The translations under genes were made by a program, and so were the position numbers. From IMG/VR virus record IMGVR_UViG_3300008116_008172, positions 1-57,738 of that record: a stretch of DNA of 57,738 nucleotides; one strand, 5' to 3'. Shown here in pieces: positions 11,346 to 57,738 of the stretch (the first letter of the stretch is position 1; each line of letters starts with the position of its first letter). Under the pieces are notes generated by a model. The model was given only the letters and a program-made list of their open reading frames with translations. It had not been told where the DNA came from and ran no database searches. This stretch comes from a virus.

Positions 11346-13196
11346 ATGGCAGACGACGACATAAAGTCCAAACTGGAAGATTACGAAAAGTATCAACGTT
11401 CTATATCCAACCTATCTGGTGAATGGGCGGATGATTTAGATAGAATTGTCGATCTGAGCAATAAACTTGGAAGCAGAGTAAGAAGTACTTTCAGCGATCT
11501 TCAAAAATCAAAAGCGGAATATGCTCAATCGTTGGACAAAGTAAAGCAGTTGGAAGTTGCGTTGAAATCAAATGGAAGAGAAGTTGCGGCATTAATAGCC
11601 GCTCAAACCGAGAACAATAGAATTTTGGAAGAAAGACAAGTGCTTTTGAATGAAGAGGCTATGTCAAGAGAACAAATTGCTAAGATCGAAAGAGAGCAAA
11701 TGCGTAACTCAGGGGCTCAATTAGCAAACACGCAAGCTTTGATAGATGTAAGAAAACAGCAAATAGGAGTTCAAGATAAGTTTAAAAAATTGGAAGAAAT
11801 GATGGTTGAGGAACAACTTAATGGTATCACCAATCAAGAAAAATATAACGGACTGTTACAGCGCCATGCATATCTTTCAAAAAGAATAACTGAGCTTCAC
11901 CAAAAAGAAGTTAGCTATATAGGCGACGCCGCTAGGTTGGCTGATCGTGGTTTAGAATTAAGTAAGCAACAAGTGATGGTAAAAAGCAGACTTGGTGCAA
12001 TAGAAAAAAAACTTTCGGATGATGCATCAAAGTATGCAAAAGCTGACGAACGAAAAGTAGAAATTGAAAATCAGATAAATACATTGCTTCAAAAAGGAAA
12101 AGCAATGCGTCAAGAAAAGAATGAGCTTGATGAAAAGAATGCAAAACTTCTTGAAAAGATAAATGATCTCACAGCAAAATGGACATTGCTAAATTTGTTG
12201 AAGATGGGATATGACCGTTTTGTTCAACTGGATAAAGCCGCAGAAAATTTTAGAAGAACAACTGGATTCACAAATACGCAGATGGTAGAATTGCGTAAGA
12301 ATGTTGAATCAGTTAACAAAGACTTTGCTGCGCTTGGAGTCACTATCGAAAATGCATACAAAGCAGCACAAGCACTTACTGATGTATTTGGCAGAACATC
12401 TCTTGTTACAAAAGATGCCATAGAAAATATTGCATTGATGAGTGCAAATCTTGGTGTTGTTGAAGCCGATGCCGCCGAGGCATTGTCGATCTTCCAAGGA
12501 ATGGGTGGCGCAACGCAGGAAGTTGCAATGAATACCATGATGGCTGGAGCCGCATTGTCTGAAAAGACAGGTGTACCATTCAGTAAAGTGATGGGAGATA
12601 TTGCAAAATCGTCCGGTACTACTGCAATGCTTCTTGGAACTACGCCAAGTAAACTAATGAAGGCGGCGATTGCCGCCAGAGCACTTGGTACAGACCTTAA
12701 TACAATCGCAGCACAACAGGAAAAACTGTTGAATTATTCTGATAGCATCAACAGTGAACTTGAAGCAAGTGCATTACTGGGCAGAAGTATTTCATTCCAA
12801 AGAGCAAGACAACTTGCATATGAAGGTAAAGTTGAAGAATCAGCAAAAGCCACACTTGATATGGTCAAGCAAGCTGGTGACTTCAATGAAATGAACATAT
12901 ATCAACGCAAGGCACTTGCTGCTGCGTCTGGTATGGAATTGAAGGATTTGACCAAGATGATGGCGGTCGAAGTGCAAAAGAATGAGATTAGAATGAAAGG
13001 AACGGATGAACAAAAGGAACAGCTTAAGATGCAAGAAGCTGAACTTGAAAAGCTTCGCAAAACAAATGATCTCACAAAGGACAGCGTGTTGGAAGAAAAC
13101 AAGAAAGCAATTGCACAGGCAAAGAGTTGGTCAAAATACTTATACCAGCGTTCAAACTTCTTTCACTTGTTGTCAAAGGCATTGCACCAATCATAA
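11346..13196 (+). CDS. Tape measure protein, N-terminal part
   Basis: 616 aa. Residues 1-280 are a long coiled coil with little Pro. Residues about 290-560 are an Ala/Gly/Met-rich helical domain (TTGFTNTQMVELRKNV, then GGATQEVAMNTMMAGAAL) typical of phage tail tape measure proteins, which set tail length and occupy the tube. The frame ends in a non-homologous tail (YLYQRSNFFHLLSKALHQS). The natural hydrophobic continuation is in the -1 frame as the next open frame. Position after gp26-like genes and before a gp48-like gene matches T4 gp29. A single missing base near 13133-13136 would join the two. Confidence 0.75.
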   Translation: MADDDIKSKLEDYEKYQRSISNLSGEWADDLDRIVDLSNKLGSRVRSTFSDLQKSKAEYAQSLDKVKQLEVALKSNGREVAALIAAQTENNRILEERQVLLNEEAMSREQIAKIEREQMRNSGAQLANTQALIDVRKQQIGVQDKFKKLEEMMVEEQLNGITNQEKYNGLLQRHAYLSKRITELHQKEVSYIGDAARLADRGLELSKQQVMVKSRLGAIEKKLSDDASKYAKADERKVEIENQINTLLQKGKAMRQEKNELDEKNAKLLEKINDLTAKWTLLNLLKMGYDRFVQLDKAAENFRRTTGFTNTQMVELRKNVESVNKDFAALGVTIENAYKAAQALTDVFGRTSLVTKDAIENIALMSANLGVVEADAAEALSIFQGMGGATQEVAMNTMMAGAALSEKTGVPFSKVMGDIAKSSGTTAMLLGTTPSKLMKAAIAARALGTDLNTIAAQQEKLLNYSDSINSELEASALLGRSISFQRARQLAYEGKVEESAKATLDMVKQAGDFNEMNIYQRKALAAASGMELKDLTKMMAVEVQKNEIRMKGTDEQKEQLKMQEAELEKLRKTNDLTKDSVLEENKKAIAQAKSWSKYLYQRSNFFHLLSKALHQS

Positions 13197-14617
13197 AAGG
13201 AATGGTATATCCGTTCCAATATATAGCAGAGAAAATTTCAGAATGGACAGATGGTCTTGACGTTGCATTGAATACATCCAAAAAATTCAAAGAGTTTTTT
13301 GAAAACGATGTAGTAAAAGCTATATTAGGTATTGCTGGAGCCGGAATTTTATACAAGGTATTTTTTGGATCGGGCGGACCATTAAAATTGATGAGCATGT
13401 TGTCTACTCCATTCAAATATGCGAAAGACGCTATAAGTGGAATGATGGGCAAAGGTGCAGTAGATCCATCCAAAGGATTATCTGATATATCAAAGGGAGC
13501 GGAGAAAGTTCCATCAAAGTCTGGTGTTAAAGATTTTCTATCTGATCTTGCATCTGGCTTGAAAAAGATGGGAGATGGTAAAGTACTATTTGGTGCATTG
13601 AACTTGATACCTTCGTCAATTGGATTGATTGCAATGATACCAGCAGCAATTGGTATGGCGGCAATTGGTGTAACTGGAGGACTGTTTGCAGTTGGAGCCA
13701 AAGGATTGGCACAAGGTCTTTCTGCACTAGCAAATCCTAAAGTTCTACTTGGTACGCTTGCATTACTTGGAATTGGTGGAGCATTTGCACTGTTTGGTTT
13801 GGGTGCAAAACTTGTTGCCGATGCATTTGTATCAATCGCAGCAGTAATACCAGAAGCTATTGTTCCACTTACTCAACTTGCATTATTGTCTCCACTTCTT
13901 TATGTCGCGGCAGGTGGAATTGGAGCACTTGCTGTTGGATTGGGAGTTTTAGCAGCGGCAACAATTCCTGCAACAGTTGCTTCGGTGGGAATATACGTTA
14001 TTGCAAAGTCCGTAGAAAAACTTGGAAACAGTTTTGAACAAGTATCCAAGAACACAATTTCGTTGGCAAAATCAATTCCTACTGTAATCAATCCTATAAA
14101 GCAATTTGCTTCAATAAACATGAAGGAAACTGCGGAAGGAATGATGATGTTGAGTAATTCACTTGCTTCGTTTGGTGTTGGGTCTGCGGTTGCCGGTATA
14201 GGTTCATTTGTTGGAAATTTCTTGGGAGGCGATCCTATAGCAAAAATGGAAAAACTAGCATCCATCAGCGACAGACTTAAAGATGCAGCATCAGCAATAA
14301 GTTCAATTGCGTCAGCGACTAGTAGATTTAGTGCAGTAGATAGTTTTGCAAAATCGGTAGGAGTGTTGGCCGACTCATTAAATAAACTCACAGATTCACT
14401 TGGCGACATAAAAACAGAAGAACTTGCCAAACTTTCTACAATAGCAGGCGCAACGGGTGCAAGAACAGAAGCAGCACCAGCCGCAACAACAATGTCCACA
14501 GAAGGTATAGAAGCAAAATTGGATAAATTAACTGAATTATTGGTAGGTGGTGCAGTCAAAGTATACATTGATGGAAAGAATGTAAGTGCTGTAGTCGCCA
14601 ACACTGCGGGCAGATAA
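13127..14617 (+). CDS. Tape measure protein, C-terminal part (-1 frame)
   Basis: 496 aa if begun at TTG 13127, overlapping the preceding gene by 70 bases with no good ribosome binding site. It is strongly hydrophobic and Gly/Ala-rich (several predicted membrane-like segments between about residues 160 and 300), as usual for the middle and end of tape measure proteins, and starts LVKILIPAFKLLSLVVKG, a plausible continuation of the upstream protein. I interpret it as the second half of one 1,090-aa protein, separated by a frameshift (error, programmed or true split). Confidence 0.65.
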   Translation: MVKILIPAFKLLSLVVKGIAPIIKGMVYPFQYIAEKISEWTDGLDVALNTSKKFKEFFENDVVKAILGIAGAGILYKVFFGSGGPLKLMSMLSTPFKYAKDAISGMMGKGAVDPSKGLSDISKGAEKVPSKSGVKDFLSDLASGLKKMGDGKVLFGALNLIPSSIGLIAMIPAAIGMAAIGVTGGLFAVGAKGLAQGLSALANPKVLLGTLALLGIGGAFALFGLGAKLVADAFVSIAAVIPEAIVPLTQLALLSPLLYVAAGGIGALAVGLGVLAAATIPATVASVGIYVIAKSVEKLGNSFEQVSKNTISLAKSIPTVINPIKQFASINMKETAEGMMMLSNSLASFGVGSAVAGIGSFVGNFLGGDPIAKMEKLASISDRLKDAASAISSIASATSRFSAVDSFAKSVGVLADSLNKLTDSLGDIKTEELAKLSTIAGATGARTEAAPAATTMSTEGIEAKLDKLTELLVGGAVKVYIDGKNVSAVVANTAGR

Positions 14618-14629
14618 TACTTATATGAT

Positions 14630-50851: not shown

Positions 50852-51556
50852 TCAACCACGTTTTCTTTTACCAAGAACAAAAGAAATACCAGATTCAGTG
50901 GGATAGAGCGACCACTCTATATTGTTCTTGTATAAACTTGCCAATCGTTTGTTTATATTTAATGTTCTTCTTTGGTCTTCCGTATATCTCAATTCTTTGA
51001 ATGTATTATCCAATACAGTCTTCGCTTCAATTAGTTTTTTATTATTTTTTTCTACGGAAGAAACATTGGTTTTAAAATACTCACTGTATTCAAATCCAAT
51101 ATGATTAGCCACAAATTCTATCCAATTATTACAATCTGTATTTACTACTAATAACTTTTCTGTTTTATCTTGGAAATGATTCAATACATTGTTATGATGA
51201 TATATTCTTTTGGATATCCATGATTTATATTCTTGATTGGTGGGTGGCCATTCAAATATACTGTTTTTTCTCATCACCCACATCCCATGTTTAGCTCTGC
51301 TCAATAACCAAGATTCTAATTCTCTGGTGTTTAGTATGAACAAGGATTTTGGATATTGCTTTTCAAGATTTTTAAAACTTATTGGATGGTTTTCTTTTAT
51401 GTGATTATCCCCATCACTTAGACATTGAACGGTTTCTATTTTGTTTTCCCAATCTGTAGAGTGGTATGAACTCAATCCCACTTTCATAAAGAGATGGTGA
51501 AAAGTGGTTGTGGCAGTCTTGTTGAATCCTATAACAAAAATTTTGCTGTACTTCAT
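50852..51556 (-). CDS. Sulfotransferase-like protein
   Basis: 234 aa from the start at 51556 (MKYSKIF); the longer frame to 51589 adds an unlikely hydrophobic piece. The PAPS 5'-phosphate loop is FVIGFNKTATTTFHHLF (about 6-22), matching the GxPKTGTT pattern, and FILNTRELESWLLSR fits the 3'-phosphate site (Arg and Ser). It probably transfers sulfate to a carbohydrate. It is on the opposite strand from its neighbours, as an isolated accessory gene, with TATAAATA (minus strand, 51597-51604) about 40 nt upstream. Confidence 0.7.
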   Translation of the reverse strand: MKYSKIFVIGFNKTATTTFHHLFMKVGLSSYHSTDWENKIETVQCLSDGDNHIKENHPISFKNLEKQYPKSLFILNTRELESWLLSRAKHGMWVMRKNSIFEWPPTNQEYKSWISKRIYHHNNVLNHFQDKTEKLLVVNTDCNNWIEFVANHIGFEYSEYFKTNVSSVEKNNKKLIEAKTVLDNTFKELRYTEDQRRTLNINKRLASLYKNNIEWSLYPTESGISFVLGKRKRG

Positions 51557-51596
51557 ATAACCATGTATACATAGTATCAAATACAACAAGTACAGT

Positions 51597-53627: not shown

Positions 53628-54323
53628 ATGCCCATCATTATTTTCAAGTTTGATGACTTTACGCAACCAAATGAATATTGGGAATGTCTAATGGAATATG
53701 GTATAAAAAACAACATAAAATTTAGTATAGGAATAATTGGAAAATATCTAGAAAAAGAAAACCAAAAAACATTTGATTGGGTAAAACGATTTCATAATAC
53801 TGGTAATGTTGAATTCTGGAATCATGGGTATAATCACGAAAAAAATAATAAAGGACTTGAATTTTTTGGTACATCTGTTGATGAACAATATTCGAGCTTA
53901 GAAAAAACACAAAGATTGGGAAAAGAAAAACTTGGAATAACATTTTCAACCTTTGGTGCGCCTTGGAATACAACCGATGAAAATACAATTTTAGCATTGG
54001 AAAAAATACCCGACATAAAAGTTTGGCTGCACGGCGACGAGAGATGCAAAAGTAAAATATGCCTACAACCGTCCAGAATAGCGTGTGAATCTTTCAAAGA
54101 GGGAAATAAATTTTTTGTTGACTTTGAAACTTTCAAAATAAAATACAACACAGTTAAATCCAGAGAGTATTTGATACTTCAATTCCACCCAGCAACTTGG
54201 AAGAAAATGAAGGCGGTCAGAGAATTTTACAATATCGCTGATTACTTGAGTAGCAATACAGATATTAAATTTATGCTTCCTAGTCAATTTGCTGAGTTTA
54301 AATACAAGCCCAACATAGCATAG
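53628..54323 (+). CDS. Polysaccharide deacetylase-like (NodB-type) protein
   Basis: 231 aa, cytoplasmic (no signal). The NodB plan is kept: FKFDDF (Asp9, Asp10: base and metal ligand), FWNHGYNH (His66 and His70: metal ligands), TFGAPWNTTDE, and LILQFHPATW with the late catalytic His. It would remove N- or O-acetyl groups from a sugar. It follows the RNA ligase by six bases but fits the glycan functions of the 40-45 kb block. Some family members act on other substrates. Confidence 0.78.
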   Translation: MPIIIFKFDDFTQPNEYWECLMEYGIKNNIKFSIGIIGKYLEKENQKTFDWVKRFHNTGNVEFWNHGYNHEKNNKGLEFFGTSVDEQYSSLEKTQRLGKEKLGITFSTFGAPWNTTDENTILALEKIPDIKVWLHGDERCKSKICLQPSRIACESFKEGNKFFVDFETFKIKYNTVKSREYLILQFHPATWKKMKAVREFYNIADYLSSNTDIKFMLPSQFAEFKYKPNIA

Positions 54324-54388: not shown

Positions 54389-54416
54389 TTTATAAATTGT
54401 TCACGAACTTTATAGT
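54389..54416 (+). promoter_or_regulatory. Promoter of the curli-type operon
   Basis: TTTATA (54389-54394), a 16-nt spacer and TATAGT (54411-54416), matching the phage promoter class by spacing and -10 box. The predicted leader is about 27 nt. The rest of 54324-54449 is AT-rich with nothing else recognisable. Confidence 0.5.
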
Positions 54417-54449
54417 ATTATTAATCATATATATTATATCTATTATATA

Positions 54450-54923
54450 ATGAAAAGTCATATAATATATAATGTAATGCTGATAATGATACTGAGTATC
54501 ACTGGGCTTAAAGCAAGTGATATGGTATTTGGATTTAAGTCTGCAACATTTAGTGGCGCAGGATTTTCTGCCACGGCAATGACGATTGAAAATTTGGCAA
54601 GAACGCGCAAGCAATCCATAAAAGATACTGCTAAAAATGAAGCACAACAACAATTACTGATGGCACAAAATACGCCGTTAAACACGTTTATAAACAATTT
54701 ACAGGCCAGAATATATTCTCAACTAGCATCACAAGTCACAGATCAAATATTCAATTCTTCTGGTCAATCTTTTGGCGTAATTAATCTACAGGGCGGCGCA
54801 ACAGTAACTTGGCAACGCAATGGTGACTTTGCCACCCTTTACATAGTCGATCCAGTAAGTGGAAATACAACTCAAATAACCGTACCAGTCGGTTCGCTAA
54901 CACCACCACCACCAAACGGATGA
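54450..54923 (+). CDS. csgF: Curli assembly factor CsgF-like
   Basis: 157 aa (E. coli CsgF 138). A signal peptide (MKSHIIYNVMLIMILSITGLKA) is followed by SDMVFGFKSATFSGAGF, matching the mature CsgF start that plugs into the CsgG pore, then LNTFINNLQARIYSQLASQV and the C-terminal strands VTWQRNGDFATLYIVDPVSG with TTQITVPVG. In E. coli it couples the CsgG channel to surface nucleation of curli. The end is Pro-rich. It overlaps csgG by four bases. Confidence 0.88.
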   Translation: MKSHIIYNVMLIMILSITGLKASDMVFGFKSATFSGAGFSATAMTIENLARTRKQSIKDTAKNEAQQQLLMAQNTPLNTFINNLQARIYSQLASQVTDQIFNSSGQSFGVINLQGGATVTWQRNGDFATLYIVDPVSGNTTQITVPVGSLTPPPPNG

Positions 54924-55723
54924 AGAATTATGCAATTATCACCCTATCAATGTTACTTCTTTCAGGGTGTGCATCAATCAAGAGCAAACCTGATATACTA
55001 GAAGTACCAAAATCCCAAACATCTCCGATGGAGAAAGAGTTGGTTGGTATTCCACCAATTGATGGTCCAAGAATAACCATAGGAATTTATGCATTTGCTG
55101 ACAAGACTGGGGCAAGAAAAACCACAGACAATTATGCATCATTTAGTTCAGCGGTGACACAGGGAGCAGAAAGTTGGCTAATCGATGCATTTAGAATGGC
55201 GGGTAGTGGAAAATGGTTTCAAGTTCTTGAAAGAGTTGGTTTGGATAATGTAATCAAGGAACGACAACTCATAGCACAGACCAGAGAAAGTTTCCAAGGA
55301 AGAAATTCTGAAAAATTAGCTCCTATGATTTTTGCTGGAATAATAGCAGAAGGTGGTATCATAGGATATGATTCAAATATTTTGACAGGTGGCGCAGGAG
55401 CAAGTGTTCTTGGCATATCAGGAAACACACAATATCGTAAAGATGTTGTTACTGTATCACTTCGTCTCGTCAGTGTACAAACAGGAGAAATACTTGTAAG
55501 CACCGCAGTAACAAAAACAATTTCCAGTGTTGCCCTATCGGGCAATTTATTCAAGTTCTATGAACACGGCGTATTGCCCATAGAATCTGAGTTGGGTTTA
55601 ACCGCCAACGAACCAAACACAATTGCGGTTCGCAGTGCGATAGAAAAAGCCGTGATAGACATTGTTTATCAGGGCGAAAAACTAAATCTCTGGAAATTCA
55701 AAAAGGAAAGTACAACACCATGA
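54920..55723 (+). CDS. csgG: Curli secretion channel CsgG-like lipoprotein
   Basis: 267 aa (E. coli CsgG 277). Lipobox LLLSG-Cys17 with Ala at +2 fits the outer membrane. Hallmarks follow: IYAFADKTGARK, YASFSSAVTQGAESWL, FQVLERVGLDNVIKERQLI, AGIIAEGGIIGYDSN, the transmembrane hairpin segments around NILTGGAGASVLGISGN and TVSLRLVSVQTGEILVST, and ELGLTANEP. CsgG forms a nine-subunit outer-membrane pore that exports curlins. Overlaps at both ends show translational coupling with csgF and the curlin-like gene. Confidence 0.93.
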   Translation: MKNYAIITLSMLLLSGCASIKSKPDILEVPKSQTSPMEKELVGIPPIDGPRITIGIYAFADKTGARKTTDNYASFSSAVTQGAESWLIDAFRMAGSGKWFQVLERVGLDNVIKERQLIAQTRESFQGRNSEKLAPMIFAGIIAEGGIIGYDSNILTGGAGASVLGISGNTQYRKDVVTVSLRLVSVQTGEILVSTAVTKTISSVALSGNLFKFYEHGVLPIESELGLTANEPNTIAVRSAIEKAVIDIVYQGEKLNLWKFKKESTTP

Positions 55724-56580
55724 AAACCATAAACATAGTAAAGTTTATATTCTTTACGGCAGTTCTAGGACTGCTTTCAAATACATTGGCTCAAACACCG
55801 GGAGCCTTGGGTGCCATCGCAGGAAACTCGTCTGGAAACCAAATATATGTAAATCAAATAACAACGGGTGGTGATACCACGTTCATTCAAAATGGCGCAT
55901 CAAACAGAATTGGATCTTTTGCTCTTCCAAGTAACATAACTGGAGACAATATCTTTTTCGAAATGCGCCAAATTGGAGATGGAAATAGCACAGACTTTTC
56001 CATCATTGGAGCAAACAACCTAAAGCTATTGTCTGCGTTCGCTGGTGATAACAACGAACAAAGAATATACTTCAACGGTGCTAATAACAATATGAATTTT
56101 CGTTTCGATGGAAACGGGAATAAATTGTGGATAAGCAACGATGTAACAGTATATCGCGATGGTGGTGAAAATACCGCAGCAGACAAAGCCACATTGGCAT
56201 CATCGGATATGCAGATCAAATTTGCTGGAAATAGCAACACTTTTGCTTACGCCACCACAAATGGTCTGAACAATTATCTGAAATATGATGTCACTGGAAA
56301 TACCAATGTCATCAAAACCACTCAAATTGGAAGTGCTGGTACAGGCACACGCCAATCAGGTCATTATCAAGATTTGACTATTCTTGGTGGAGGCAATGAT
56401 GTTATGATATACCAACAAGGCACTGTTCAACAATATTTTCAATATAGTTTGACGGGTAGCAATAACATTGTTCGTGTATCACAAACTGCAACTGCCGCTC
56501 CTACATTCACAATTAACAATAATAATCAACTGGCTCCACAAGGACCAGCGAGTGGTACAACTACCATAAGCAATCCATAA
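55720..56580 (+). CDS. Curlin-like secreted beta-repeat protein
   Basis: 286 aa, with a signal peptide ending SNTLA before QTPG. The mature part is Asn/Gly/Gln-rich with about eleven turns of the NGASN, GDGNS, AGDNN, TGNTN type spaced roughly 20-25 residues, each flanked by short beta strands containing Gln (NQIYVNQIT, IFFEMRQIG, VMIYQQG). This is the pattern of curlin (CsgA/CsgB) or a related beta-solenoid, more diverged than E. coli CsgA. Only one Met-rich or Cys feature is absent: there is no Cys. Predicted substrate of the adjacent CsgG/F. It overlaps csgG by four bases. Confidence 0.75.
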   Translation: MKTINIVKFIFFTAVLGLLSNTLAQTPGALGAIAGNSSGNQIYVNQITTGGDTTFIQNGASNRIGSFALPSNITGDNIFFEMRQIGDGNSTDFSIIGANNLKLLSAFAGDNNEQRIYFNGANNNMNFRFDGNGNKLWISNDVTVYRDGGENTAADKATLASSDMQIKFAGNSNTFAYATTNGLNNYLKYDVTGNTNVIKTTQIGSAGTGTRQSGHYQDLTILGGGNDVMIYQQGTVQQYFQYSLTGSNNIVRVSQTATAAPTFTINNNNQLAPQGPASGTTTISNP

Positions 56581-56583
56581 AGA

Positions 56584-57738
56584 ATGAACAAAATTGTTAC
56601 AGTCGCATTGATGTTCTTTTTATGGCATGATGTTTATGGTATTGCGGGTAAATTGACCGAGGTGACTGGCCCTACGCAGGTGAGTAGGGCCAGCACTAAA
56701 ATAGAAGGCAAGGTCAATGTTCCGATAGAAATGGATGATACCATTGAAACATTAAAAGCACGAGCGGGTATAACATTTGAAGATGGAACCCGAGTCCAGT
56801 GCACCGAATTTAGCAAATTGGTTATTGATACATTTGTATATGATCCAAGTACGGGAAAAGGAAAACTTGGAATGAAGGCAACAATGGGAACGGTGAGATA
56901 TGCATCTGGTCTTATTGCAAAAAATAACAAAGAAGAAGTCAGAGTTAAAACTCCTACTGCATCCATATCAGTTCGCGGTACAGACTTTTCAATGACAGTG
57001 GATGAGCTTGGAAGAAGCTTGGTAATTCTGTTACCATCCCAACCTCAATTTGGTCCACCTGTTGTTGGATCGATTGTGGTTGATAACGGAATGGGTACAG
57101 TTGTATTGACAAAACCATTTCAAGCAACATTTGTTGCATCAACATCGGTGGTACCATCATCGCCAGTATTATTGAATTTTGAAGATGAAACCAAAGTAAA
57201 TAACATGCTTATAATTGACACACCAAAGAATGTTACTCAAGCTGCCAAAGAAGCAAAGAAGGCATCTGTAACGGCGACTAAAGAAGATGATGGTAGCAAA
57301 GATAAGAAAGAAACAAAATCCGAAAGCAAATCAAGTAATACAACTATTGCACAGGCGGACAAACCAACCGAAGAAACTCAAGTGGCAACAAAAGAACCAG
57401 AACCAGTTCAAGCTGAAATTGTTACAAAACTTGACATAGAAAAAATTGATCCATCTGTTAATTCTTCTATTATGGATTCTATGTCCAAACAACCAAACGC
57501 CGCCAATACAAATTTATCAAACATACCTACTATATCCGTGCCATCTTCAACAGTAAATAATGGATTTACTACAAATGGAACACATGCCATTCTATATATA
57601 ACTAATAACAATAATGTAATATGGTATACTATGAAGTTTGACGCCAATGCAACTTTCAACATAACAACCAGAGATGGCAGTAAAGAATATCCGCTTAACT
57701 TTGGTTCAAAATTAAAAGTCAACATCACACAAAAATGA
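56584..57738 (+). CDS. Exported FecR-domain protein
   Basis: 384 aa, complete; the stop is the last codon of the window. A signal peptide (MNKIVTVALMFFLWHDVYG) precedes a FecR domain (about 20-150): GKLTEVTGPTQVSR, AGITFEDGTRVQCTEFSKLVID, KATMGTVRYASG and VRVKTPTASISVRGTDFSMTV. Residues about 205-290 are Lys/Glu/Thr-rich and probably disordered. The C-terminal 70 residues are beta-prone (AILYITNNNNVIWYTMKFD). It starts three bases after the curlin-like stop and is part of the operon. It may anchor or organise the fibre in the periplasm or at the wall. Confidence 0.82.
   Translation: MNKIVTVALMFFLWHDVYGIAGKLTEVTGPTQVSRASTKIEGKVNVPIEMDDTIETLKARAGITFEDGTRVQCTEFSKLVIDTFVYDPSTGKGKLGMKATMGTVRYASGLIAKNNKEEVRVKTPTASISVRGTDFSMTVDELGRSLVILLPSQPQFGPPVVGSIVVDNGMGTVVLTKPFQATFVASTSVVPSSPVLLNFEDETKVNNMLIIDTPKNVTQAAKEAKKASVTATKEDDGSKDKKETKSESKSSNTTIAQADKPTEETQVATKEPEPVQAEIVTKLDIEKIDPSVNSSIMDSMSKQPNAANTNLSNIPTISVPSSTVNNGFTTNGTHAILYITNNNNVIWYTMKFDANATFNITTRDGSKEYPLNFGSKLKVNITQK

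Follow-up and report, generated by a model that had tools for sequence, protein, structure and literature searches.

Here, we report a curli-type (type VIII) secretion operon at the end of a T4-like phage contig, IMG/VR virus record IMGVR_UViG_3300008116_008172 (positions 1 to 57,738; this whole 57,738-nucleotide stretch is called the window). Four open reading frames (ORFs) on the same strand follow gp43-gp45-gp44-gp62 and an RNA ligase gene, and the contig ends in what is predicted to be a fifth gene. The features were as follows.

53628-54323: DUF2334 gene (polysaccharide-deacetylase-like), between the RNA ligase gene and csgF
54389..54416, + strand: previously proposed promoter, TTTATA-16-TATAGT (9/12 match; not supported)
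54428..54443, + strand: AT-rich block TATATATTATATCTAT, immediately ahead of csgF (candidate promoter or leader element)
54450..54923, + strand: csgF-like gene (157 aa, signal peptide; Pfam CsgF)
54920..55723, + strand: csgG-like lipoprotein pore gene (267 aa; Pfam CsgG, solved-structure match, phage tree)
55720..56580, + strand: curlin-like repeat gene (286 aa, signal peptide; G-x-x-N repeats, profile link)
56584..57738, + strand: gene for an exported FecR-domain protein (384 aa; signal peptide, Pfam FecR)
57735..57738, + strand: ATGA on which the contig ends; a fifth gene (CHASE2 adenylate cyclase), cut by the window, is predicted to start here

The csgF/csgG, csgG/curlin, and curlin/fecR junctions were −4, −4, and +3 nt. 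The strongest hydrophobic stretch of each of the four proteins lay at its N terminus, and CsgG carried an LSGC lipobox, in agreement with a preliminary description of this DNA that had assigned export signals to all four. The same description had counted four genes; the four ORFs and their junctions stood, and the count was changed by the contig end. There, the last bases are the FecR stop codon, and the ATGA could double as the start of the next gene. The same gene order was common to 62 IMG/VR loci, of which 52 were long enough to show the gene after fecR (the other 10 end at the contig end); in 52/52 this was a CHASE2 adenylate cyclase gene, overlapping fecR by 4 nt in most relatives (range, −4 to +2 nt). 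With this spacing, a second curlin gene could not fit between the two, and none was found in these 52 loci. Because the cyclase came next in every relative reading further, the operon is counted as five predicted genes, with the first four in the window. No locus of sufficient length lacked the curlin-like gene, which always adjoined csgG. No CsgE or CsgC partner was seen with the module; the earlier label of a reduced system (without csgE, csgC, and csgD) fits this. Such absence is normal for phage modules, according to PMC9599517.

Proteins encoded by the module

The csgF product matched Pfam CsgF (2.7e-15; 57.1 bits versus a cut-off of 25.8; profile positions 4-132/132), and the csgG and fecR products matched Pfam CsgG (1.3e-45) and FecR (4.2e-9), both above the curated cut-offs. 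A phage CsgG profile matched solved E. coli CsgG structures (2e-60) over nearly the whole length. Together, these matches uphold the initial identification of a curli-type operon in a T4-like phage. A PDB sequence search with CsgF gave nothing significant; in the N-terminal region of CsgF, F29, F34, and G36 were invariant among 23 phage sequences. The aromatic CsgG residues Y72 and F75 fall in the loop that aligns with the constriction of E. coli CsgG and were nearly invariant in the window clade; in the two cultured phages, the aligned Phe is Leu.

In the CsgG tree (rooted for drawing only), the window clade (20 rows) was monophyletic with 100/99 support, and phage-type CsgG, including copies binned into metagenome-assembled genomes (MAGs), was split from 32 bacterial CsgG at 100/99. 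Scanning bacterial genomes with phage CsgG returned MAG contigs only, and at least one of these is a phage (L090, with a terminase on the same contig). The Rhodobacteraceae MAG Water_Bin34 held four csgF copies on short contigs (L087, L106, and L107) with phage-like modules; the small set of genes tested on these contigs included no phage hallmark. At only 1499 bases, the “Salmonella phage” record OR851715.1 encodes a CsgG with 36.7% identity to that of the window and looks like host DNA.

The 286-aa curlin-like protein had no significant Pfam match, Curlin_rpt included, and its best PHROG match (0.0013) was to a PHROG of unknown function; PDB sequence and solved-structure fold searches returned nothing significant. 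It contained 12 G-x-x-N motifs at intervals mostly of 11-12 or 22-23 residues, a count as high being reached in 1/5000 shuffles. A profile built solely from the window clade matched 9 ORFs among 32 bacterial csgFG loci, whereas reversed and shuffled control sets gave no match, and all bacterial matches checked for a broader phage curlin profile (6/6) were Pfam Curlin_rpt proteins. An AlphaFold2 model (22 sequences; pTM 0.70, mean pLDDT 71) gave strand-turn-strand repeats, for which the top BFVD matches were viral models named “Curlin associated”; weak fold matches included tailspike and pectate-lyase-like solenoids. The curlin-like assignment made at first sight thus gains from the clade-only profile, which retrieves curlin-repeat proteins, but a Pfam curlin match of the protein's own is absent.

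The FecR protein consisted of a signal peptide (N-terminal helix 2-17) running directly into the FecR beta domain, a low-confidence linker (about 210-325), and a C-terminal beta domain. Its model matched the periplasmic halves of the anti-sigma proteins BDI_1681 and PupR, and the N-terminal cytoplasmic anti-sigma domain that precedes the transmembrane helix was not present. This layout, a periplasmic half plus a signal peptide only, argues against a FecR-type anti-sigma regulator. FecR of the pelagiphage module has been read as an iron-dependent regulator in PMC9599517; with a signal peptide and without the cytoplasmic anti-sigma part, that reading does not follow from the architecture.

The cyclase of a relative (L005) matched Pfam CHASE2 (9.9e-41) and Guanylate_cyc (2e-20), a class III cyclase domain, and the metal Asp, Lys, and Asn/Arg residues were kept in most of the relatives aligned. 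In the 297-kb relative of the window (L012, about 12848-14623), the cyclase ORF ends early (591 aa) and is followed by a 267-aa ORF, possibly through an insertion or frameshift. Phage FecR and cyclase profiles gave no match in the stretches around 32 bacterial csgFG loci, a comparison in which divergent homologues could be missed. Elsewhere in bacteria, FecR lay just upstream of a CHASE2 cyclase in 3/40 sampled loci with no curli nearby; since these carry it outside curli, the FecR/CHASE2-cyclase pair exists on its own.

Genomic setting and published relatives

A gp44 scan, independent of curli genes, found 53 loci. Among close relatives (at least 80% identical), the module stood at the same site in 8/8 that reach past the RNA ligase gene, from several metagenomes; one of these (L142) ends inside csgF, and a ninth close relative (L137) ends before the site. 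The module was not found in gp44-scan loci at 57% identity or less within the stretches examined. With the junction shared by all eight in independent assemblies, a chimeric contig, which the preliminary description had feared as a join between 53.6 and 54.5 kb, is ruled out. The DUF2334 gene falls outside the shared order and was not noticed at that place in relatives. On the − strand at 50852-51589, a 245-aa ORF with a P-loop-like motif at its start (FVIGFNKTATTTFHHLF) appeared sulfotransferase-like by eye.

The TATAGT promoter with a 16-nt spacer, formerly placed before csgF, is not supported; it is a 9/12 match that is not conserved in relatives, and promoter-like sites in the surrounding region were at chance level (41 found versus 46.8 expected). 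Sites of the TTGACA type were present ahead of gp43, gp45, and the RNA ligase gene but not ahead of csgF. In most of the 16 relatives examined, an AT-rich block, TATATATDATATNTAT, lay about 6-12 nt upstream of the csgF start codon (ATG), and the 297-kb relative (L070-L084) held 58 copies versus 7-17 in Markov sequences (up to 2 mismatches, both strands); judged from sequence, it is possibly a phage promoter class.

The window was colinear with the 297-kb contig, which encodes 36 tRNAs and a tmRNA and carries a divergent gp23. The window gp43 was nearest to that of Microcystis phage Mel-JY01 (41.3% identity) and 28.5% identical to that of HTVC008M. Because of this gp43 affinity and the size of the colinear relative, the carrier is classed, on sequence grounds, as not a pelagimyophage. 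No psbA-type match, sought as a photosystem-gene clue to the host, was found in four long carrier contigs. Other carriers included a contig with gp23 and gp32 (L054) and siphovirus-like contigs (L033-L052; e.g., L043:895-5573) whose minor tail and tail assembly genes are siphovirus-type, some with rIIA/rIIB adjoining the module; siphovirus-like carriers are not described in the accessible portions of published phage curli reports.

That phage curli genes might already have been reported, as the preliminary description allowed, proved correct; reports date from 2020 (PMC7029224, PMC9004378, and PMC9599517). In pelagiphages, csgF/csgG were reported in 2020 (PMC7029224), followed in 2022 by the full module csgF-csgG-csgA/B-fecR-(csgA/B)-cyclase, also in pelagiphages (PMC9599517), and a csgGF module in an OM43 phage (PMC9004378); csgGF is also mentioned in sediment viruses (PMC9636769). 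By its published description, the T4-like Bacteroidetes virus contig TARA_ERS488589_N000003 carries three curli genes next to one another (PMC7198788).

The pelagiphage module (Myoviridae and HTVC023P-type Podoviridae; PMC9599517) and that of HTVC008M share with the window the order csgF-csgG-csgA/B-fecR-...-adenylate cyclase and the absence of csgE, csgC, and csgD. They differ in a second curlin between fecR and the cyclase gene (frequent, not universal, in the pelagiphage module), which the window clade lacks, and in position, between gp32 and baseplate genes; the carrier phages are distant and CsgG is 47% identical. Methylophilales phage Melnitz has the same module (CsgG 45% identical to that of the window); its paper describes only csgGF and states that csgA/B are lacking (PMC9004378), whereas the record holds two annotated curlin-repeat genes, FecR, and the cyclase. 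Bacterial curli operons (Pseudomonadota) share CsgG and CsgF homologues, with curlin repeats nearby in some, but FecR and the CHASE2 cyclase were absent from the stretches around the 32 csgFG loci and CsgG forms a separate clade. The window module is thus not the first of its kind; it is new in its carrier lineage, and its novelty is modest.

Proposed function and alternatives

We consider it rather likely that infected cells export a curli-like fibre via a CsgG-CsgF pore while a FecR/CHASE2-cyclase arm reports envelope state by cAMP. During infection, CsgG would form an outer-membrane pore with CsgF as its cap or anchor, and the curlin-like protein would reach the periplasm via its signal peptide, pass through the pore, and form a beta-solenoid fibre at the surface of the infected cell. 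Envelope sensing would fall to the exported FecR-domain protein together with an inner-membrane CHASE2 adenylate cyclase, an arm reporting fibre or pore state as cAMP. The sequences establish the genes with their order and families, the retention of cyclase catalytic residues in most of the aligned relatives, and the constant position of the module in this lineage; expression, fibre assembly, and FecR-cyclase contact are inferred. The benefit would most likely be a changed cell surface that excludes competing phages or makes neighbouring cells aggregate. Phage curli papers have proposed sibling capture, exclusion, lysis control, and uptake, with no experimental demonstration given in their accessible text; no clumping was observed upon infection with a phage that has a related module (PMC9004378). 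This observation counts against the fibre reading, as do the absence of a CsgE or CsgC partner and the lack of a Pfam curlin or solved-structure match for the window curlin-like protein. A more specific version, tentative and rather doubtful, is that the exported half-FecR responds to the state of the CsgG pore or of the fibre and regulates the CHASE2 cyclase, so that fibre display would set cAMP and hence host physiology; none of the sampled bacterial curli loci showed such secretion-sensor coupling (curli with a FecR/CHASE2 cyclase).

It is unlikely that the pore has been repurposed, with CsgG/CsgF a gated channel that aids lysis or the uptake of nutrients and only a secondary part for the fibre gene, as suggested in PMC9004378 and PMC7029224. 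Published AlphaFold models of OM43 and SAR11 phage proteins have an altered barrel neck and a divergent CsgF (PMC9004378), which would suit such a channel. Phages with rIIA may also control lysis timing. A bare pore would not need the curlin-like gene present in every locus long enough, however, and the near invariance of Y72 and F75 in the window clade likewise speaks against repurposing. Moreover, depolarisation of the inner membrane would not be expected from a CsgG pore alone, since such a pore lies in the outer membrane.

The module might instead mainly manipulate host signalling, the CHASE2 cyclase raising cAMP with FecR and the fibre as sensor input. The cyclase gene in every locus long enough, the retention of its catalytic residues in most aligned relatives, and the FecR/CHASE2-cyclase neighbours in curli-free bacterial loci agree with this, but the conserved CsgF-CsgG-curlin genes would go unexplained unless fibre state is the signal, and the cyclase gene lies outside the window; we regard this as distinctly unlikely. 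That the curlin-like protein serves as a fibre of the virion or its tail, with the pore genes assisting assembly, is very improbable; it is a phage-coded beta-repeat protein with weak tailspike and pectate-lyase-like matches, but virion proteins assemble in the cytoplasm, and the signal peptides of this protein and of the csgF, csgG, and fecR products, together with the constant adjacency to csgG, disfavour that role. An assembly artefact joining bacterial curli genes to a phage contig, which the position at the contig end might suggest, is almost certainly wrong given the junction common to 8/8 close relatives and the split of phage from bacterial CsgG.

Export of a curli-like fibre, coupled to envelope sensing, remains our preferred reading. 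Phage curli modules have been known mainly from SAR11 and OM43 phages. Because the module keeps a constant position within an unrelated T4-like lineage (that of the 297-kb relative) and is present in siphovirus-like contigs, the trait is broader than known and probably maintained by selection, and the FecR architecture suggests that FecR and the cyclase act as a sensor pair, an idea open to testing.
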